Assembly: GCF_030704535.1 (NCBI RefSeq)
Contig: NC_081810.1
Location: 6,171,501-6,235,500 of the forward strand
DNA: 64,000 nt
Reading direction: 5' to 3'
Origin: Vitis vinifera
Taxonomy: Eukaryota; Streptophyta; Magnoliopsida; Vitales; Vitaceae
Below are positions 35,578 to 59,618 of the stretch, one piece after another. How positions within the stretch are numbered: the stretch's first letter is position 1; each line of letters starts with the position of its first letter. Made by a program: the position numbers and the translations under genes. The notes beneath the pieces are model-generated. The model searched no databases. It was not told the DNA's origin and saw only the letters and a program-made list of their open reading frames with translations.

Positions 35578-37888
35578 CTATTGGTCGTGTGCAATGCTGG
35601 GTTCAGGGGGAGATGCATCCTCCTGGTTGGCCCCTGCTTCACATGCTATCTGATAGCACTGGCGAGCGGCTAATTGGCTGCCATATAGGTCGATTTGACC
35701 ATCGTAGGTAAGAAAACTCACCATTTGATGGTATGTAGAGGGGATAGCTTTCATGTAGTGGAGCCATGTGCGCCCCAAAATGACATTGAAGGGTGATAGC
35801 TCCTGTACTACTGAAAACTGTACATTGAGAGTGACTAGGCCAGCTTGAACCGGCAGTATGATATCTCCCAAGGATGTGGTTGATGATCCGTTGAATCCGG
35901 ATAAGATTCGTCCGGGGTTTTCAAGGCCCACGAGACTATGTCCCATGTGGCCAACGACTGATGCTTGCACCAGGTCGGTCGAACTGCCTGGGTCAACTAA
36001 GATACGCCGCACATCGAAGTCCCCAATTTCCAGGGACAAGATGAGGGCGTCGCGATGTGGTTGTAGTGTCCGGGTGGGATCTACTGGTGGAAAAATTATT
36101 GTTCCATCTATGGGGCGAGGGCCCTCTCCAGTTAGACCCGACCGGATGGAATTAATGCGTTCGCGTATTGATGCAGCCCGCAACAATTTTTGCCTTTTCC
36201 GCCTGGAGTCATACTCCTCGTCAGATGGTCCTCCGCTAATATAGTTGATAACGGCCTTGGTGGCAACTGGGGCCCTAGGGGCTCCAGGGTTGTTGTGCTG
36301 GGAAACGTCCCTACCCCCAGTATCCGTGCGGAGGTATTGCTTCAAATGCCCAGCTTTTATGAGTCTTTCGACCAAATACTAGAAAGATCGACACGTCTCT
36401 GTTGTATGGCCATGATCTTTGTGGAAGGCACATCTCTTGCTACGATCCCTTGTAGATGGGTTCGTTGCAATGGGTCTAGGCCACTTGAAGTCGGACAAGC
36501 CTTGGATCATTGGGAGAAGTTTCTCATATGATATAGAAAGAGGTGAGAGGCGGCATTTTCGGGCGACTTGGCCCTTCCTGCCTTCGGTCAGACGGCTTTG
36601 GCTGATCCGGAGGTTTGGTATTTCTCTCCGTATTACTTCCGGATGGCCGTCCGGCAACCAAAACTTGTTGGGTGGCTGCACGTATGTCATCTTCGAGCAT
36701 TGAATATTTGTTGGCTCGTCTGAATAAGTCGTCCATCGTAGTAGGAGGCTTTTTAGCCAGTGATTCGAAAAATGGAGTGCCTGGACAGATGCTTCGTTTG
36801 AAGATCTGTAGGACAACATCCATACTGCAAGCTTCCACTTGAAGTACGGCTTGGCCAAACCACTTCACAAATTCCCTTAAGGATTCGTTATCTTGCATTT
36901 TTATGTTCTGCAAGGTGCTGATATTTTGCTTGTGTCAGGCGAAGCACAGGTATTGTCCCACGAAAGCTTCGGACAAGTCCCTGAAATTGCCAACAGAGTT
37001 GGGAGGTAGGTGATGAAACCATGAGAGGGCCTGTCCTTGTAGGCTGGCGGGAAATACTTTGCATAGCAGCGCATCGTTGCCAATATCGAGCGTCATGAGC
37101 TGTCGATAATGCATGATGTGATCGAAGGGATCGTTGGTTCCATCGTATATGGAAAATTTTGGTACGAGGAATCCCCTTGGGGGCTCATAGTTAATGATAT
37201 GAGAGCAGAAAGGCGTGGAGAGCATGTCATCCAGCCTTTTGCTGATGGAGCCAACGGGTGGCCCGTTTGGGATGTTTCTCCCAGTTGGCTGTTCCGCTGG
37301 GTGTAGATGAACGTTCCGCATCACAGGGGTGACTATGGGGTCACGATGCGGGTGATCGTTTTGCACCATGGGGGTTGCCATGGGGTCAGGGCGTGGTGCC
37401 CAGGTTGTGGCCATAGGTGGCCTTGATCTTCTAGGTTCTTGCGGGCCTAGTTTTGCGCGCATCGAATTTGACAACCGCGACTTTTTATCACGTTGCCTTT
37501 TTGCTGAAAAGTGAGTAGAGTCTGAGCTTTCCTCACGGGGAGCTCGAGGCATAGGCGTGCGTGGCTCATGAGGCCTCACGTTGCATGCCCCTGGGATTGC
37601 CCCTGTTGTCCCAGGGTATATTGACTCCGGTTTTTGCTGAGGCCTTGAGTTTGCTACTTGGCCCCTCGAATGTTGACGTCGAGGAGGCTTTGATGTTGAA
37701 GCCTGGATGCGTAACACAGCGTTTTCTTCTCTCAATCTTTCTGTCTCCTGGAGAAGAGCTTTTAGCTGTCTTTCGCTTGCCAACTGTCTCCTTTCAATGG
37801 CTAGGCGCCATTCAAAATTATCATCCTCTCCCCTACCAGATGAACGACTTTGGGATGGTGTGACCATATTTTTTAGTGACTGAATCAA
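35578..37888 (-). pseudogene. Gypsy gag and aspartic protease (broken)
   Basis: Starts at 37888 (MIQSLKNMVTPS). A coiled, charged N-terminus (ERLREENAVLRIQ) and a Pro/Arg-rich linker lead into the capsid-like region (FLVPKFSIYDGTNDPFDHI, GQALSWFHHLPP, SFRDL-type). Lesions: TGA at 36935-36937, a frameshift near 36530-36550, TAG at 36379-36381 after the knuckle-like CAFHKDHGHTTETC, and TAG at 35578-35580 ahead of pol. The protease has VDPGSSTDLV where D-T/S-G is expected, then VILGRTWLH. Three stops fit C-to-T change of CGA or CAG codons, as expected from deamination of methylated cytosine. Confidence 0.88.
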
Positions 37889-38825: not shown

Positions 38826-40103
38826 AAACAACTAGCATTTATATATGTTGTTTTCTCAAACCTGGTTTTATGTTCCTTCACCGCTTCTGTTTTGAGGTTA
38901 TTTGCTTGTGATAGTGACCTTGCGCTCCTAGGGGTTAATACATGGTTACCAAATAATAATAAGTCTATGCTTCCAATAAATATTGAAAATTTTCTTATTA
39001 TTCAATCACAGATTTCTACTTTCTCCACCAATCATAGATGCAGTTTATGTCTCCGGTGCTATCCCCAGTCACCCGCCTACATCTCCAGTCAATTGCAACC
39101 CTTCTCTACCAACTTTAATGGTTCAATGGCAGTATCCAAATTCATATACAAGCTGTTGGATTGGGAAGCCTGAATCAATTTTATTACGTTTCTCTCTTCG
39201 ATTAGTTTTGTTGGATTGGAATGACTAGGCCTTGTTTAGTTGGGTAGCCTCTGTTCATTTGTTTATGTGTCACCTGTGATTCTATTTTGGCCTTGGTTTG
39301 AGCATCTATGGCCGCTGTTAGTTTCCATTTTTGTTGTTATTTTTCTGTTCTGATGAAATCCTTGAAAACATTTGACAATTTACATTCAAGGTAGCATACT
39401 AGCATGGGACACATCTGTATCATTAGTCAGAAGAACAAATGATGCTTGGTTGCAATTAATCTTGGAGAATGAGCTACCGCTAACTACACAAACTGATATG
39501 ATAATTAACCAGTATTTCATGAAGGTAAGACCTTTAGCTGTAAAAAATGAAGCTGAGCCACCATGCTATGAAGCTTCGTCATTGAAATCAATGAAATGTG
39601 TCACAAATTAAAATTATAATATTTAATTTCACATTTATTTCTATAATAATTATATAATGATAATTATAAAATTAATATAATTAATTACTATAATAATTTC
39701 AAAATAATAAAATACAAAGACATACAAATAAAATTAAATACTATAATTTTTTAATTTTAAATATATCTTTATACTTAAATATTATATATGTTATATTTAA
39801 TAAAATTTAAAATATTAATACATTTATATTTATCTTCATCATTTTATTTTATATATCAAATATAAAAACGAAAGATTATTAAGATTTTTAATTACACATT
39901 TTTAATTTTTTATATTTATAACATTACTAATTTGACCGTTGTTCAACCACCGGTTCAACTAATGAACCAATAACTTTTTTGGTTTAATCATCGACCCGAT
40001 TCTGAAAACATTACACAAAACTACTTATTTAGATCCAAAAACTAATATAAATGAGCAGACTCGAGAGTCATCATCCATGGTTTAAAATATAAATACAGTG
40101 GTT
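38826..40103. other. Intergenic DNA 3' of the interrupted SDR copy
   Basis: The SDR 3' UTR, then AT-rich DNA. Frames at 38892-39611 (plus) of 79-93 codons show no domain I recognise. From 39620 on it is very AT-rich. Confidence 0.45.
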
Positions 40104-40210
40104 AATTGTTGCAATTAGAAGATTGTCAACTAAAACATTACTCTTAGAGTTAGAAATTTTAATGACTAATAAAAAAGATTAATCAAGAAAATGGCCAACT
40201 AAACCTTTTT
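40104..40210 (+). repeat. First unit of a ~131-bp tandem duplication, split by the Copia element
   Basis: AATTGTTGCAATTAGAAGAT through AACCTTTTT is repeated at 47372 onward at high identity. Its missing end (CACATTTTTTGTACTCACTC) lies at 47348-47371, just beyond the Copia element. The intact unit is 47372-47503. Confidence 0.8.
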
Positions 40211-40400
40211 TGTTATAAAATATGAGATTTTATACCACTATGGTAACTTGTGGATGATCATCCATAAATATCTCTTGTAACTCCCTATAAAAGGGAGAGA
40301 CTCCTAATGAATTTGAATAAAGTTTTCCCATACATTCTATTCTCTTCCTACATTATGATTCTCTTGTTTTCTTCCTCTTTCACTTTATAATTTTACAACA
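40211..40400 (+). repeat. 5' LTR of the Copia element
   Basis: 190 bp. It contains a likely TATA box (CTATAAAAGGGAG, about 40293) and ends TTTTACAACA before the primer region. Confidence 0.88.
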
Positions 40401-40429
40401 CGTTATCAGCACGAATAGTCTCTACAAAA

Positions 40430-40590
40430 GAAATAGAAAGATTTTTCTCTATTAAGAGAAATAGAAAAATGTTCTTCTCTTTAGAGAAATAAGAAAGATG
40501 TTCTTCTCTTTAGAGAAATAGAAAAATGTTCTCCCTTTTAGAGAAATAGAAAGATGTTCTCCCCTTTAGAGAAATAGAAATATTTTCTCT
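40430..40590 (+). repeat. Leader tandem repeats, AGAGAAATAGAAA-type, about five units of ~29-35 bp
   Basis: Repeated AGAGAAATAGAAARATGTTC units separated by TTCTCTTT or TCCCCTTT. The purine half and pyrimidine half are mutually complementary, so each unit can fold. It lies directly after the primer site, in the untranslated leader. Confidence 0.75.
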
Positions 40591-40704
40591 CTTCTTTCTC
40601 ATAAAAAGGTATGTGATAAACTTATATCATGATTTTCTATTTTATTACCTTTTGATCTCTATTTTCATATATTTTATTTGAATACATAAATATATATAAT
40701 CCCT

Positions 40705-41561
40705 ATAACCAGAAGTTATGGGCTAAATTATAAATTATAAGGTATATTCATAACCAGAAGTTATGAAAAATATGTACAATCCCTATAATCATAAATTATA
40801 AATTATAGGGTAAATTCATAATCAGAAGTTATGAAAAAGATGTACAATCCCTATAATAATAAATCATAAATTATGGGGTAAATTCATAACCAGAAGTTAT
40901 AAAAAATATGTACAATTCCTATAACCAGAAGTTATGAGGAAAAATGATAAAATTACAAATACATGACCAGAAGTTATGTATATGATCCTTAATGATTTAT
41001 TTTTAATTATACGGTATAACTAGAAGTTATACCAAACAATATTATAACCAGAAGCTATAAAATAAATAAATAAATAAATGTTCATAGCCTGAAGTTATGT
41101 ACAAATCTACATAATGAAAGTTCATAGCTCGAAGCTATGTACAAATCTACCCAATGAATAGTTCATAACCTGAAGTTATATATAAATTTATATAAAAAAC
41201 AGTTCATAGCCTAAAGTTATGTACAAATTTAAATATTTTCTTGTTCTAACAAAAATAATCATGACCCGAAGCTATGAAAAATATTAACTTTTAATTTCTT
41301 TGATTAATTTTAATTATATCGTGTAACTAGATGTTATACATAAATAGTTCATAGCCTGAAGCTGTGTACAAATTTGAATATTTTTTTGTTTTGACAAAAT
41401 AATCATAATTCAAAGTTATGAAAAATATTGGATTTAATTTTTATTTCGTACTCATTTATTTTTCACAACAGGAATTATGGAAAACAATTTTTATTAACAA
41501 TAGTTTCATAGCCAGAAGCTATGCATACAATTTATAATTCTCTTGTATAACCAGAAGTTAT
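40705..41561 (+). repeat. Array of ~18 short hairpin units in the Copia leader
   Basis: A 15-19 nt imperfect palindrome CATAAC-CAGAA-GTTATG recurs at irregular 25-60 nt spacing, e.g. 40705, 40750, 40818, 40886, 40921, 40962, 41014, 41042, 41083, 41123, 41508 and 41546. The stem is 5-7 bp and the loop 5 nt (CAGAA, CTGAA, CCGAA, TCGAA). The inner stem pair changes from A-T to G-C (CATAGC..GCTATG at 41123 and 41508) or G-T (CATAGC..GTTATG at 41083) while pairing is kept. See findings. Confidence 0.85.
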
Positions 41562-41579
41562 TCAAAACAAAATTGTCAA

Positions 41580-42165
41580 TGAATCTTGGAGCTATGATCA
41601 AAGAAGGAAATCAAGCATTCTTGTAGGATCGCACAAAAACAATGATTTTCCTTCGTCATCATTTCCATGAAGGTTTAACAAAAATGAGCTTTTGATGAGA
41701 AATTGCCAGTTTCGTCCAACTGAATTTGAATCATTCCCTGAAGTGAATGCAATATTGTCCCAAACTCGTGGACGTGGTCGTGGAAGAAATCCACTATACC
41801 ATGGTTCTTTTAGTAATAATTCACCAAATTCTCAGAAAAGGAAAGCCTCATTGCACCACCAGAAGTGAAATAATACGGAGGTAAAACAAGAAAATGAGAA
41901 GTGTTTACAAGATAAACCTCCTAAGAACCATGAGAATAATTGTTATATATGTGGTATGAAGGGGTATTGGTCGTGTACCTATTGTACGTCCAAACATTTG
42001 GTCGACCTTTACCAAGCATAAATAAAAGGAAAGGAAGTTGAAATGAACTTCATTGATAGTGATGGCCAAGTGGTTCTAACCCATTTAGATGTTTCAGATT
42101 TCTTTGAGAATCTTAATGGAAAAATTGACCATCTAATTGGTGATGGAAATGTTTGTTATGATTAG
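41580..42165 (+). pseudogene. Copia gag C-terminal part (broken)
   Basis: Remnants read LLMRNCQFRPTEFESFPEVN, then QTRGRGRGRNP (RG-rich RNA-binding tract), then a zinc knuckle NCYICGMKGYWSCTYC in which the normal CX2CX4HX4C histidine is altered. Stops lie near 41868 and 42019. The region ends VCYD-stop at about 42165. The N-terminal gag half is missing. Confidence 0.8.
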
Positions 42166-42473
42166 ACGTTATGTTTTTATTTAGTTCTTTGCAAATAGGT
42201 TTATTTTGTTATCATCTTTGAACACATTGTTCATATTTTATAGTTTATTTCACATTTTATTATTTATCATTTAAATTCTTTTCTTAATTTATACTTGAAG
42301 ATACATGGATCTCTATCATACCTTGATCCATCATTACAATTAGTTTGATTATTGAAATACTTTCTAGTTATTTCATGTATAAATTATTTCACACTTACAA
42401 AATCAAATGTGTGAGATATTTACGAAATATATAAATTTAAATTATCTTTTCATATTTGTTTTATTGTGTTATT

Positions 42474-44150
42474 GATTACTACTCAAAAAGTGCTATTTCA
42501 TAGCTTGTAATTAACTCTTTTAAACACTTTTGAGTAGTAGTTATTACCTTTTAACTCAATTGGCATGTTAAGGACCCTTGCAATCATTTTAAATCAAATT
42601 GTGTTAAGTTTTGGTGTTTTTGATAGCTTTTTGATCACCAAAGCAATCCAAGAATGAGGGAGATCTTTGTATAGTTCATGGCAAAGCAAGTTGAAGCTCA
42701 AATTCATGAAGAAACTAAGCTATAAAGCTTCATAACCCTTTGCAAAAGCCAAACGAGGATGCAAAGAAGAAAATCATAGAAGAAATCAACCATCTAGCAA
42801 TTTTGCAACTTGTGGAATCCAACTTGCGAAATAGGAAGAAGAAAGGAATCGCTGTAGGACAGACAACCGATAAGTTGTAGGATAATTTCGCAACTTGCAA
42901 AATGGACAATTTCAACTTGCGAAATTTTCGCAAGTTGCATTTGAACTTGCGAAATCCACCTATAATCTGAGATATTTGTGCACCGACTCCGTTTGATATT
43001 TATCTTCAGATATTTGTGTGTAAATCCCTATTTTCTCCTTGTAACCCACCAATGACAAGCTTTCTTGATTGGAAAGTTAGTAGGAGGGGTGAATAGCCTC
43101 TCTATATAATATCTATTGTAATTTTCTTAAAATATCTCGGGAGTTTTTCTCAGAGAAAAACCTTTGTATAGTTTTTTAGAAAATAATACATAGAGGTCTA
43201 CTCTGCCTTACCTTCGCATTTTGTTTTCTCTTTTATTTTTACTTCTAGCAAATCAAACTCTGAGGATGTTTTCCTAGAGGATGAGTGGCTAGGCTTTTTG
43301 TGTCTTGGAGTGAAGGAAGCTAGGTAAGGTTCCAGATACAAAAGTGGAAGTTTCGTTGTTTCAGTTTTTAATGAAGAGAAAGTGTGACCCGTTAATGGTT
43401 TTTATCTTTTTAGTTAACTTAAAATATCTTAAAATCACTTGGGCCAACACTTGGTAAGGCAAGTGGGCTCCGTTCATTGAGATCTACTAATTTATCTTTT
43501 GCGAGCCTCTGGAAAGTGGTTTAAAGGTAGGATTATCTAGAATAGCCAACACTTGGTAAGCTTTTGGACTCCCAGGAGACATCAATTAGTTATCTCTTGT
43601 TAGCTTTTGATGGGTAATCCAAGGTTAAGGATCACCCTGAATGACCCATACTAGGTGAGAGGTATGAGCCATTGCAAGATGATTCAGTGACAAGGATTTA
43701 GTGTTTGAAACCATTAAGGAGAAACATCTATACCACATTGGTTCGGGAAATAACTATATGTTAAATCCTCAATGCGAGGAAAAGATCCAAGTGACCGAAA
43801 TCTCCTTTTTTGTATAAGGAACCTGAGCCTAGTGATCTAAAACTCCAAGAAGTGCTTTTCTTTGTAAGTAATTTCAGTTACTTTATTCTCGGTTTCACTT
43901 AAAGCCAACCTTTTCACACATACTTATGTTTTCTTCTAAAGCTAACCTTGAAAAGAAAAAACACCAATTTAGTTTTTGAACTAATATCAGTTGAAATTTG
44001 AAAATCCATCCCTGTGGACGATCTTAGAGCCACTATGCTATGCTAGCTAATGTTACCCTAGTAGATGGTGAAATAGGTTTATAAATTTTGTTGATTACTC
44101 CCATTTGAGGATTGAAATCAGAGTACACCAGTTGATTGAACACCAATCAG
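42474..44150. mobile_element. Nested gypsy-LTR-like insertion inside the Copia element (ends approximate)
   Basis: About 1.6 kb without coding frames interrupts the Copia between gag and protease. It starts with a near-perfect inverted repeat ACTACTCAAAAAGTG (42478) / CACTTTTGAGTAGT (42525). The interior has repeated AACTTGCGAAAT-type phrases (42.87-42.95 kb), a duplicated 'CCAACACTTGGTAAG' segment (43.44 and 43.55 kb) and an end like gypsy LTRs (ATCCCTGTGGACGATCTTAG). It is probably a solo LTR or fragment. TG/CA ends and target duplication were not settled; GGCA near 42564 and 44154 is too short to be convincing. Confidence 0.55.
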
Positions 44151-44299: not shown

Positions 44300-46928
44300 C
44301 GAAGTCTTTATGATAATGTTTTATGACTTGTTACTTTGATGAAACTCTTGTCTCATTAATTATACAACATTGATGACAAACAATGTTAATACTATATCAG
44401 GTGATAGAAACCTAATAAAAGGCTCCAAAAAGAGCTTATATTATGTCACTAGTAGTATTTGATTCCATGTGGATGACACTTTATATGATAGATCCAAAAG
44501 AATCTTGTAAGACCAACTTGGTCCCTCGGGGTAAAAGATCATATGGATGTACATTATAAAACCATAAGTTTTTATTTAGTGACTAGTCTACCTATACACT
44601 TAAAAGGTAGAATGACTTGTTGTGCAAATTATCATTTTAATGAGACAATTATCTTGCCGTTAGGGGAAGAAGAGCTAGTTCCAAAAGAACGACGTGAAAT
44701 TATTTGGAATGCATTGACTTTGACTCATCTTGATCCCCATACAAATCAATGTGAACTAGAAGTTCAAAGGACCACTCATTTGCAAAATCTTGTAAATTAA
44801 TTACAAGACGCATTCATTGATACAAAGAAAGTGACAAAGTCATATATTCCAACTGCAAATACTCCAGCACGGATTGATGTCCATGTAGGACAGTTAACAA
44901 ATTAATCTAAGATACGCCTGAAACGTGGTAAACCTGTCGGCTCAAAGGATGTAACTCTCCGAAAGAAGAGTACCCAAGAAAAACTTGGCACTCTAAAAGA
45001 AGCCATAAAAAATAACTGATCAATGAAAAATTGATAAATCTATAGTCCCAGAAGAGGCACAAATAATGTAGAAAGCCCTTGAAGAGGCACATATTAAACA
45101 AGAAGCCCCTAAAGAGGCACATATATTTAACAAGAAGCCCTTAAAGAGGCATAAGTACCTGAAAATTGTGAATCTCAATAAGATATGTATACACGGGAGA
45201 AAAATGAGGTTAAAATAATATTATTATTAACAATATTTTCACTTTCCAAGTGGCCTCCAATATCATAAGAAATGATGAAGATCCTAAACCACGAAATGTG
45301 GAAGAATGCCAACATAGAAATGATTGGACAAAAATGGAAAGAAGTTATATAAGTAAAGTTAAACTCATTAACAAAATGAGAAGTTTTTGGACTTGTAGTC
45401 CAAACACTTGAAGATGTAAAGCCTGTTGGGTAGAAATTGGTATTTATACGAAAAACGCAATGAGAATAATGAGATCATAAGATATAAAGTACGATTAGTA
45501 GCACAAGGTTTCTCGTAAAAACCTAGTATTGACTATGAGGAAACATTCTCTCCCGTCATGGATGCAATCACATTTCGTTTCTTAATTAATTGGGTAGTCC
45601 TAGAAGGACTAGATATGCATCTCATGAATGTTATTACAACATATTTATATGAATCCATGGATAATGATATATACATGAAAATCCCTGAAGGATTTAAATT
45701 GCCTGAAGCAAATTGTACAAAGCCTCGTAGCATGTACTCAATCAAGTTACAACGATCCTTGTATGGATTAAAGCGATCTGGATGCATGTGGTACAATCGC
45801 CTTAGCGAATACTTGCTAAAAGAAGGGTATGTGAATAATCTTATATGCCCATGCATTTTCATTAAGAAATCAGAAACCGGATTTGCAATTATTGTAGTGT
45901 ATGTTGATAACTTAAATCTCATTGGAACTCCTGAAGAGCTCACAAGAACAACAAATTACTTGAAAATGAATTTGAGATAAAAGATCTTGGAAAAATAAAA
46001 TTTTGTCTCGCCTTGTAGATCGAGCATTTTCCAAATGGAGTTTTAGTACATCAATCAACATACATTAAGAAAGTTTTGAAGCGTTTTTATGGATAAAGCG
46101 CATCTTTTAAGTTCTCCAATGGTTGTTTGATCACTTGAAGTGAAAAAAGACCCATTTTGTCCTTGCGAAAAAGATGAAGAATTACTTGGTCCTGAAGTAT
46201 CATATCTTAGTGCTATTGGTGCACTTATGTATCTTGCCAATTGTACACGTTCAGACACTGTTTTTTTTTTTTTTTATGTCAATTTATTAGCAAGATATAG
46301 TTCGACTCCAACTCGAAGACATTGGAATGACATCAAACATATATTATGTTATCTTCGCGGAACTACTAATAAGGGTCTATTTTACTCAAGGGAATCAAAA
46401 CAACAATTGTTTGGATATGTAGATGCAAAATATCTTTCAGATCCATATAAAGGTAAGTCACAAACATGGTATGCGTTTAATTACAATGGTACTGCTATCT
46501 CATAGAGATCTATCAAACAAACAATGGTGGCTACATCATAAAATCATTTAGAAATTCTTGCAACTCATGAAGCAAGTCATGAATGTGTATGGCTAAGGTC
46601 AATGATCCAACATATTCAAGAAACATGTGGACTACCTTCCATCAGAGGCAATGCAACCAAGTTACATGAAGATAATGCTGCTTGTATTGTACAAATTAAA
46701 AGAGGATTCATAAAAGGTGACAGAACTAAGCATATCTCCCCTAAATTCTTCTATACTCATGAGCTCCAAAAGAAAGGTGAGATCGATGTTCAACAGATTC
46801 GATCATGCAATGATCTAGCAGATCTATTCACAAAGGCATTACCTTCGGCTGCATTGAAAAAGTTAAGGTATGACTTTGGAATGCGAAGATTGAGAGATCT
46901 ACCATTTGAAATATTGAAGAAATCATAA
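44300..46928 (+). pseudogene. Copia pol: protease remnant, integrase C-terminus, reverse transcriptase, RNase H (broken)
   Basis: NNVNTISGDRNLIKGS (44380-44425) is the protease end. About 50 bp later the frame is already integrase C-terminus (44543-44800, LPLGEEELVPKERREIIWN, DPHTNQCELEVQR), so the integrase core is deleted. A degenerate GAGGCAC repeat stretch (45050-45150) encodes a repeated EEAH-type linker. RT runs from about 45240 to 46110 (FRFLINWVVLEGLDMHLM, RSLYGLKRSGCMWYNRL, FAIIVVYVDNLNLIGT with VDN in place of VDD). RNase H follows, 46140-46928 (YLANCTRSDTVF, LHEDNAACIVQIKRG, KHISPKFFYTHELQK). Several stops and a T-run frameshift (46260) break it. Confidence 0.88.
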
Positions 46929-47151
46929 TCATGTTTACATGAGGGGGAGAATGATAATATGGATATACTGCACTCTTTTTTCCTTAGTCCAAGTTTTGCC
47001 CCATTCGGTTTTACTGGCAAGGTTTTTAACGAGGCAGTTATAGTAATCCAAAAGAATATTGTACTCTTTTTCCTTCACTAAGGTTTTTCTCATAGGGTTT
47101 TTCCTAGTAAGGTTTTAATGAGGCATATTCTTATGATCATCTAAGGGGGAA

Positions 47152-47342
47152 TGTTATAAAATATAAGATTTTATACCACTATGGTAACTTGTGGATGATC
47201 ATCCATATAAATATCTCTTGTAACTCTCTAAAAGGGAGAGACCCCTAATGAATTTGAATAGAGTTTTTCCATGCATTCTATTCTCTTTCTACATTATGAT
47301 TTCTATTGTTTTCTTCCCCTTTCACTTTATAATTTTACAACA
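47152..47342 (+). repeat. 3' LTR of the Copia element
   Basis: 191 bp, ~95% identical to 40211-40400, preceded by the purine tract AAGGGGGAA. Confidence 0.88.
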
Positions 47343-47371
47343 TTTTTCACATTTTTTGTACTCACTCTAAT

Positions 47372-47503
47372 AATTGTTGCAATTTGAAGGTTGTCAACTA
47401 AAGCATTACTCTTAGAGTTAGAAATTTTAATGACTAAAAAAAAAGATTAATCAAGAAAATAACCAACTAAACCTTTCTCATAATTTTTCATACTCACTCT
47501 AAT
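47372..47503 (+). repeat. Second, intact unit of the ~131-bp tandem duplication
   Basis: Matches 40104-40210 joined to 47348-47371. It shows that the Copia element landed in the first unit of a pre-existing tandem duplication. Confidence 0.8.
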
Positions 47504-48614: not shown

Positions 48615-49860
48615 AAAAGTCATAGGAACATGATAAACATTTCACAATTTAATGTTGACAAGATTCATACAAAGTGAGGTTTCCCCTAAATTTATTATTA
48701 TTATTACATATATTTGTTTCCACTAAAATCTTATCTTTAATACTGTAAGGTTATGTTTGGTTCCCGAAAAATACTAAGGAAAGAAAAAAAATGCAAAGAA
48801 AAATGATTTTTTCATGTTTGGTTGTCATATGAAAAATATAAAAGAAAATTAAATATAATTAAAACTAATTAAAAGTTTATGTATTTTTAAATTATTTAAT
48901 CTTTATATTAATGAGTTAAAATAAATAAAATGAGTTTGAAGTAACAAAAAAAATAATTTATCAACTTTTAATCAATTTTTTTATTTTCCTTCACTTTTTC
49001 TTTCATTGTACTTTTCCTTTGTATTTTCTTTCCCTTATATTTTCCTTCAAATTTTCTGGGAACCAAACATAGCCTAAAAGTCAATATTAGGAACATGAGA
49101 AACATTTCACAATTTAATGTTGACAAGACTAATACAAAGTGAGGTTTCCCTCTAAATTTATTATTATTATTACATATCTTTGTTTCCACTAAAATCTTAT
49201 CTTTAGTACTTTAAAAGTCAATATTAGAAACATGAGAAACGTTTCACAATTTAATGTCGACAAGACTAATACAAAGTGAGGTTTCCCCCTAAATTTATTA
49301 TTATTATTATTACATATATTTGTTTCCACTAAAATCTTATCTTTAATACTCTAAAAGTCAATATTAGGAACATGAGAAACATTTCACAATTTAATATTAA
49401 CAAGACTAATACAAAGTGAGGTTTCCCCTAAATTTATTATTATTATTACATATCTTTGTTTCCACTAAAATCTTATCTTTAATACCCTAAAAGTCAATAT
49501 TAGGAACATGAAAAATATATCACACTTCAATGTTGACAAGGCATTATACAAAGTGAGGTATTATTTCCATAATATCTTTGCTTACACTAAAATCTTATCT
49601 TTAATACCTTTGAAGTTAAGATTATGAGCATGAAAAATATGTCATACTTCAATGTTGATAAGATTAATACAAAATGAGGTTTCTTCGTCAATTTATTATT
49701 ATTACTACAATATCTTTCTTACACTAAAATCTCATCTTTAATAGCTCAAAGTTAATATCACAAGCATGAAAGTTCAACATGCCATCCTCCAATCTTAACA
49801 AGGCTAATACAAATTGTGATTTCCCTAATTTTTTTTCCATTGTCTTTCTTTTTCTTGTAC
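48615..49860. repeat. Tandem array of ~7 units of about 125-140 bp
   Basis: Each unit reads AAGTCAATATTAGGAACATG, then TTCACAATTTAATGTTGACAAG, CAAAGTGAGGTTTCC, a (TTA)n run and TCCACTAAAATCTTATC. Unit starts are near 48617, 49077, 49213, 49353, 49489, 49610 and 49745. The first units are close to identical; the last three diverge progressively. A MITE splits units 1 and 2. Confidence 0.85.
48749..49074. mobile_element. Tourist/PIF-Harbinger-type MITE
   Basis: 326 bp with terminal inverted repeats GGTTATGTTTGGTTCCC / GGGAACCAAACATAGCC and a 3-bp TAA target duplication (48746-48748, 49075-49077). GG-N-TGTTTGGTT ends and a TWA target are typical of Harbinger-derived MITEs. The interior is AT-rich and non-coding. 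Confidence 0.88.
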
Positions 49861-59035: not shown

Positions 59036-59618
59036 TTGGAAAACTTGTATTTTGGAGCTGCTATTTAGAAATTATATAGTTTTCGGAACCCAAAAATGAG
59101 AAATATGATAATCAAATTTTAATATGAAAAGTATTATCGTTTTTGTGCACTTTGAGTAGACTTCATCTTTTGTGCCCAAATGGCCCCTCCATGTCTCCAG
59201 CTCAGCATTCTTAGCATCATCCCAACCTTTGTGTCAGTAGAACCATTGAAATTAAGAAAAAAAAAAACACAAAAATCTAAATTTGTAACTTCTCAAAAAA
59301 AAAAAAAAAAAAACCCAATCTGCAAGTTTTCAATTTGCTCATTTGGAAAACATTTTTTTTTATAAATATCAATATTATTTTTAAAAAATGGTGACTTTTA
59401 GCTTTTAATTAAAACTAAGAACAAGAAGTTATTCCAAATATGACTTATGTATTTATTCAGTGAAAGTAATTTTTTCATTTAAAAAAAGTAATTTCTTGGT
59501 GATAAAAAGAAATATTTTTTTAGTAGCTTTTCGATGCTATAAAAAAAGTGTTGGCTAAGTTTGTATGATAAAATTGGTGTTATTTATATACCAGCACTTT
59601 CGCTAGGGTCTTATTTAT
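58936..59618. repeat. Shared intergenic block, copy 2 (internally deleted)
   Basis: Matches copy 3 (61976-63096) but lacks about 360 bp (corresponding to roughly 62461-62828). It ends GCTAGGGTCTTATTTATTGG, immediately before a stretch matching an SDR intron (see findings). Confidence 0.85.

Follow-up and report, generated by a model that had tools for sequence, protein, structure and literature searches.

The leader of a grape Copia element in the window, the whole 64-kb stretch of Vitis vinifera DNA that was analysed, repeats one short palindrome many times. The locus raises the question of whether the stem of this palindrome has been kept as sequence or as pairing, and what the repeated unit may have done for the element. 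An earlier description, made from the letters alone (the sequence-only reading), reported about 18 copies of the palindrome, compensatory changes in its 6-bp stem, and RNA-level selection as their cause.

A hairpin array in the leader of a dead Copia element

The window element is a Ty1/copia LTR retrotransposon, as evidenced by paired LTRs, a primer-binding site, a purine tract, an RVT_2 remnant, and gag remnants. Its parts are as follows.

40211..40400, + strand: 5' LTR of 190 bp with TG..CA ends and TTTTT on the outer side
40401..40414, + strand: primer-binding site CGTTATCAGCACGA, the 12-base core of which is the same in relatives
40429..40593, + strand: second, smaller hairpin series of five short TTCTC..GAGAA hairpins in 28-bp repeats
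40704..41562, + strand: main hairpin array of 16-20 units with a 6-bp stem and a 5-nt YNRAA loop
41577..41583, + strand: junction 1, the point where the leader passes into gag (around residue 35 of the gag fragment of locus L073)
41576..41677, + strand: gag remnant A, containing a stop and corresponding to residues 35-68 of the L073 fragment (tblastn)
41640..41760, + strand: stretch containing junction 2, where gag has an internal deletion; the 13 loci that are unbroken across junction 1 are also unbroken here
41839..42164, + strand: gag remnant B, the zinc-knuckle part, with stops and an approximate end (tblastn)
45558..45980, + strand: reverse transcriptase remnant (RVT_2, E 5.9e-17)
47152..47342, + strand: 3' LTR, with a purine-rich tract upstream (about 47143-47151) and TTTTT downstream

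The 5' and 3' LTRs are 92.7% identical, and the TTTTT on both outer sides is a putative target duplication composed of low-complexity sequence. The gag homologue from L073 matches Retrotran_gag_2 at E 1.4e-4, below Pfam's cut-off, and the L073 fragment homologous to remnant B has a zf-CCHC_2 match that falls short of the curated cut-off. The window element itself is dead and belongs to one gag-deleted subfamily.

The array is located in the leader, between the primer-binding site and gag. The motif ATARCNNGAAGYTAT, allowed up to one mismatch, has 18 matches across the whole window, where 0.57 are expected, and none of 100 dinucleotide shuffles reaches this number. Sixteen of the matches lie inside 40705-41561, all on the plus strand, and the remaining two are at 59418 and 62888. 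Weaker copies bring the array to the 20 unit positions used here. The hairpin array is thus real as an observation and the count of about 18 copies is borne out, as is the Copia leader setting, with a 5' LTR and primer-binding site upstream and gag remnants and a copia-type reverse transcriptase downstream. At gathering score, Rfam has no match in the array; one sub-threshold match lies outside it, at 42470-42548.

The inner pair of the stem, pair 5, is G-C at units 41123, 41507, and 41350, the last of which also has T-G at pair 3. G-T occurs at unit 41083 and at pair 4 of unit 40962. Mispairs are A.C at 41043 and 41260, C.A at 40885 and 41164, and T.T at 41546. The pair states named by the sequence-only reading are present, as is its mispaired unit, with two of the positions differing by one base (41508 and 41042 there, 41507 and 41043 here). 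Tandem periods of 68 and 41 bp indicate that the array has partly grown by duplication.

The stretch from the primer-binding site to the array was excised from 17 loci, in which it is 133-300 nt long. Hairpins of the TTCTC..GAGAA type are found there in six of the 17 loci, 13 in total against 0.14 expected. In the window copy, this series is enlarged to five 28-bp repeats (40429-40593).

Hairpin units across the grape genome

The genome searched comprises 495.6 Mb in 21 contigs. The strict unit CATARCCNGAAGYTATG occurs 425 times genome-wide and its reversed control 0 times; the wider unit YATARCYNRAAGYTATR occurs 2,320 times and its reversed control 22 times. We sampled 40 loci, the earliest in contig order among the matches listed (contigs 1-5), which together with the window yield 503 units at up to three mismatches, 444 of them distinct when the flanks are included. 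The window LTR is matched in 31 of the 40 sampled loci, and a locus stretch contains about 6-26 hairpin units. The upstream flanks of 29 loci are unrelated save for two pairs that match over short stretches, and therefore these loci represent separate insertions.

Two of the loci, L047 and L048, each carry arrays in opposite orientations, an arrangement suggestive of two facing elements. On contigs 13 (7.897-7.975 Mb) and 16 (21.20-21.30 Mb), repeats of the same hairpin units are evenly spaced, which indicates that segments carrying array elements have been tandemly duplicated. Matches in viral contigs, eight loci with one exact 17-mer each, are about at chance level by a rough count and were set aside.

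Pairing of the stem is better kept than its sequence

In the 425 strict units, pair 5 is A-T in 193 (by subtraction), G-C in 140, G.T in 59, and A.C in 33, counts that partly reflect tandem copies of one segment, such as the five G.T units that recur on contig 16 at intervals of about 24.6 kb. Pair 5 is Watson-Crick in 333 of the 425 units, whereas 215 are expected with independent sides. Flanking sequence defines 17 unit types, to which 568 of 584 units were assigned. The 14 types with at least ten units have 84 majority pairs, 81 of which are Watson-Crick and three G-U, with no A.C or other combination; when the three small types are added, A.C occupies two of 102 majority cells. Among the 14 types, pair 1 varies between C-G and T-A, and pair 5 between A-T and G-C. 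Both covary across types in shuffle tests (12 and 16 of 5000 shuffles reach the observed value for pairs 1 and 5, respectively), which overstate covariation because the unit types are related. In the same tests flank position -2 covaries less strongly (89 of 5000), and positions -1 and -3 show no covariation.

Shared descent was taken into account with a tree built from the flanks, without the unit and without three bases on each side of it. On this tree, pair 5 (z 6.3, 0/300) and pair 1 (z 2.2, 10/300) are the top two of 136 unit column pairs, and the third-ranked column pair joins non-partners and has one third of the score of pair 1. The flank pairs -3 and -2 reach z of 3.3 and 2.4. When the flank columns are counted too, several unpaired pairs rank equally high in mutual information, a sign of shared descent. 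Pairs 5 and 1 thus covary beyond shared descent on the flank tree. When the tree is built from the 33-nt units instead, pair 5 still leads all 528 column pairs by z (4.1, 1 of 200 simulations). Taken across all of these pairs, however, its E-value is 9, and no other stem pair is prominent. The covariation test among relatives, which the sequence-only reading had called for, therefore favours compensatory change at pairs 5 and 1 on the flank tree and singles out pair 5 alone, at this high E-value, on the unit tree.

Changes were counted on the full-data flank tree and seven bootstrap trees, eight in all, with ties resolved at random. Terminal branches serve as a neutral control because they mostly record decay after insertion. 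On the full-data tree, changes from Watson-Crick pairs on branches ancestral to at least five loci kept pairing in 29 cases and lost it in five, in comparison with 123 kept and 142 lost on terminal branches (p 1.4e-5; 3.7e-6 to 0.017 over the seven bootstrap trees). Forms of the 17-mer were also divided into recurrent and private ones: 30 of the 36 that occur in at least three loci pair fully, with 16 GU and five AC, and the 177 private 17-mers have 104 GU and 77 AC. One-step links between recurrent forms comprise 19 GU, six AC, two mismatch, and one GU-mismatch; private steps from Watson-Crick, with 87 of the 177 private forms left out for want of a neighbour, comprise 15 GU, 17 AC, and 19 mismatch. 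Pairing is better kept than sequence in the stem, as had been claimed. The copying of one unit onto another, or an error in the tree, could mimic double changes. We conclude that the pairing of the stem was probably under selection while the lineage was active.

G-U and A.C pairs and the strand of the hairpins

The array folds with z of -6.9 on the minus strand and -5.9 on the plus strand. Since the minus strand folds equally well or better, folding z-scores were dropped as proof of RNA function. On the full-data flank tree, the ratio of G-U to A.C is 12:2 on deep branches and 102:88 on terminal branches. The deep ratio is above the terminal one in all eight flank trees, with p<0.05 in three of them, and for branches ancestral to at least eight loci the G-U excess has p<0.05 in five of the eight. 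When both directions of change are counted, the ratios are 24:9 and 133:97 (p 0.13). The unit tree is without a deep excess, at 26:28 on internal and 61:46 on terminal branches. The claim of RNA-level selection is supported by the direction of the deep excess in every flank tree and weakened by its significance in three, by the unit tree, and by the folding of both strands. The prevalence of G-U over A.C provides moderate support for plus-strand RNA, and we lean towards the hairpins acting in this form.

Loop, spacers, and two explanations without RNA selection

Loops of 3 to 8 nt were allowed in counting hairpins whose arms are intact, and the loop is 5 nt long in 299 of these 305 hairpins; L047 and L048 were omitted from this count because each contains two facing elements. 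The 299 loops have Y at the first position in 287, any base at the second, R at the third in 286, and A at the fourth and fifth in 292 and 289, and the loop is inverted in a single hairpin. Such an asymmetric loop of fixed sense is more readily reconciled with recognition of single-stranded RNA than with a symmetric DNA site.

Conservation was compared in the 32 of 40 other loci that aligned. Whole stems are 86.1% identical and spacers 86.4%, a lack of difference that led us to reject whole-stem conservation as support; loops are 80.4% identical. Stem A/T positions (89.6%) resemble spacer A/T positions (89.4%), and C/G positions are at 78.4% in stems versus 73.3% in spacers. The A/T positions of pairs 2-4 together with loop position 4, a set picked post hoc, are 94.8% identical versus 89.3% in spacers, and higher in 31 of the 32 loci. 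C/G unit positions are 76.6% identical versus 72.4% in spacers, and higher in 23 of the 32. Gaps open 20.8 times per kb in units and 33.1 times per kb in spacers.

These data bear on the possibility that mutation alone produced the array, with palindromes spread by tandem duplication and arms held concordant by template switching or copying between units, in the absence of RNA selection. Template switching is able to create and maintain hairpin stems, according to the accessible part of PMC8794818. The units are indeed tandemly duplicated, whole stems are conserved no better than spacers, and private G.T and A.C changes are about equally frequent, but private changes freely break pairs (142 of 265), which indicates that there is no strong correction of such changes within the genome. 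The loop keeps Y, R, A, and A around one free base, and the base-matched core positions, albeit picked post hoc, exceed spacers in nearly all loci. The single inversion among 299 loops also speaks against mutation alone, although the same portion of PMC8794818 finds loop inversion to be rare anyway. We regard mutation alone as an unlikely origin of the pattern.

It is quite unlikely that the palindromes are DNA-level sites, which would bind a dimeric regulatory protein and form an enhancer in leader DNA. The palindrome is symmetric and folds on both strands, and its half-sites are 11 bp apart. The leader of Drosophila copia is reported to contain an enhancer. The palindromic repeats of Sireviruses have been interpreted as transcription signals (PMC2829016, accessible part). 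If both variants of a half-site were bound, however, mixed half-sites should equal matched ones, and matched ones prevail; the conserved spacer is asymmetric and keeps one fixed sense; and the spacing of array units shows nothing special with respect to the 10.5-bp helical phase.

Loss of gag and size of the array

The 41 array loci and L079-L083, 46 stretches in total, were searched by tblastn with two L073 gag fragments, and 21 of them gave a gag match. Both gag-deletion junctions of the window are common to 13 of the 41 array loci, and DNA alignments run across both junctions in all 13. In this group, the leader enters gag around residue 35, and gag lacks an internal part; L043 belongs to it, yet is without a tblastn gag match. 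In 14 other array loci, the leader alignment ends at 41583-41584, motif-like sequence continues beyond it, and gag was not found. Six of these 14 (L039, L045, L046, L072, L076, and L078) have a pol junction equivalent to window positions 42472 and 44180, and constitute a second derived subfamily with a longer leader. A similar but less exact pol junction is present in L063. In L058, L064, L073, L082, and L083, the extrapolated gag start lies 184-277 nt after the array. Array loci beyond these groups of 13, 14, and five were left unclassed.

Gag was thus lost by deletion common to separately inserted copies, as in a subfamily of the BARE2 kind, and array-carrying derivatives without gag multiplied. 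The array tends to be longer in gag-less relatives: the median number of units per locus stretch is 14 in the 13 junction loci, 16.5 in the 14 gag-less loci, and 9 in the five gag-bearing loci (p 0.0035), medians that derive from few founding events and from stretches of unequal length (L082 and L083 are shorter), some of which contain two arrays.

A screen for relatives with an open gag returned 767 candidates, of which 150 were scored; among these, 15 have a stop-free open frame of at least 340 aa. In the leaders of eight of the 15, the array was looked for and is absent in all eight, with the primer-binding site the same. Three of the open-gag leaders were measured and extend 13 to 211 nt from the primer-binding site to the gag match. 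A single motif-like site in seven of the eight leaders was rejected, as its stem is mismatched, it folds poorly, and 28 of 2000 shuffled leaders equal it. Packaging in the open-gag group therefore does not need the array, which is a feature of one lineage and not a basic need of the group. The sequence-only reading had taken absence of the array from intact family members as evidence against its case. Such absence is what the eight open-gag relatives display; five sampled array members keep the gag start, and the stretches viewed contain no complete open gag.

Possible function of the array

We tentatively propose, at somewhat less than an even chance, that the array is a cis-acting RNA structure of one Copia lineage, used in packaging or dimerisation and multiplied in gag-less derivatives. 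In the cell, this structure would form by folding of the untranslated leader, in which a single stem-loop, C(YNRAA)G on a 6-bp stem, is present many times. Each unit would have been kept competent for pairing during the transposition of the lineage, which the branch counts demonstrate in part. The likeliest role of the array would be to recruit genomic RNA to particles, either because the nucleic-acid-binding region of Gag binds it repeatedly or, alternatively, through pairing between two RNAs. Gag-less members would have used Gag made by relatives, and the multiplication of gag-less array carriers fits such use. Taken by itself, the assignment of the role to packaging or dimerisation is possible but doubtful.

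One may also speculate that the array was a device for the capture of Gag, with gag-less elements competing for foreign Gag by means of more Gag-binding hairpins, a scenario that we consider rather unlikely. The number of hairpins would then have grown as the elements turned parasitic, and the tandem packaging signal would have been tuned by unequal exchange.

Control of translation, by which the structured leader and its many upstream AUGs would lower or reroute translation and spare RNA for reverse transcription, is distinctly improbable: the window leader (40404-41561, from the primer-binding site to the array end) does contain 31 ATGs, most with open frames of <16 codons, the 3' arms of many hairpin units end in ATG, and BARE keeps translated and packaged RNA apart (PMC3735527, accessible part), but the ATGs would follow from the arm sequence and A+T-rich DNA, and gag-less members carry the array yet have no gag to regulate.

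Comparison with known elements

To our knowledge, the selection of plant retrotransposon RNA for packaging is poorly understood. The proposed packaging structure has its closest parallels in four systems. BARE2 is unable to produce Gag, and BARE1 particles package its RNA; like the window element, it represents a multiplied Copia subfamily with a common deletion at the gag start (PMC3735527). The accessible part of that paper mentions no tandem hairpin array, and packaging by a relative is shown there, whereas it is inferred for grape. The packaging and dimerisation domain of Ty1, of the same Ty1/copia class, also consists of hairpins at the 5' end of the RNA, the pairing of which matters for packaging. 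As described in the available text of PMC5454406, it is built from a pseudoknot and two hairpins with complementary loops, whereas the grape element repeats one stem-loop.

Sireviruses, which are plant Copia elements, likewise have short palindromes in many copies outside their coding regions (PMC2829016). In the portion of that source at hand, their motifs occupy LTRs and the neighbourhood of the env-like gene, with a CGG-CCG core in nearly every case; the grape array differs in its leader position, A+T-rich composition, ATA core, and conserved asymmetric loop, and falls outside the Sirevirus criteria. The grape Copia families Noble and Tvv1 resemble the window element in the variable leader length among copies (PMC2576258). 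Noble has a different primer-binding site, TGGTATCAGAGCC, and its length variation is attributed to large insertions and deletions, with no hairpins named in the accessible part of the paper.

A literature search for the 17-mer and 15-mer motif strings found neither in papers among the matches listed. Judged by title and the start of the abstract, none of the matches listed, which cover few subscription papers, reports a leader hairpin array in a plant Copia element. With 2,320 copies of the leader stem-loop in one genome, past selection can be read from the shared changes, and the private ones serve as a neutral control. Through its association with gag-less groups, the array also offers a testable case of genomic parasites exploiting helpers.

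Surroundings of the element

A 106-bp sequence is present on both sides of the element, at 40103-40208 and 47371-47476, with 94.3% identity, and the element therefore seems to lie inside a short tandem duplication of host sequence. Downstream, about five tandem copies of a repeat of about 140 bp lie at positions 49074-49831. On the minus strand at 35578-37888, open reading frames resemble, by eye, a Gypsy-type gag and protease region.
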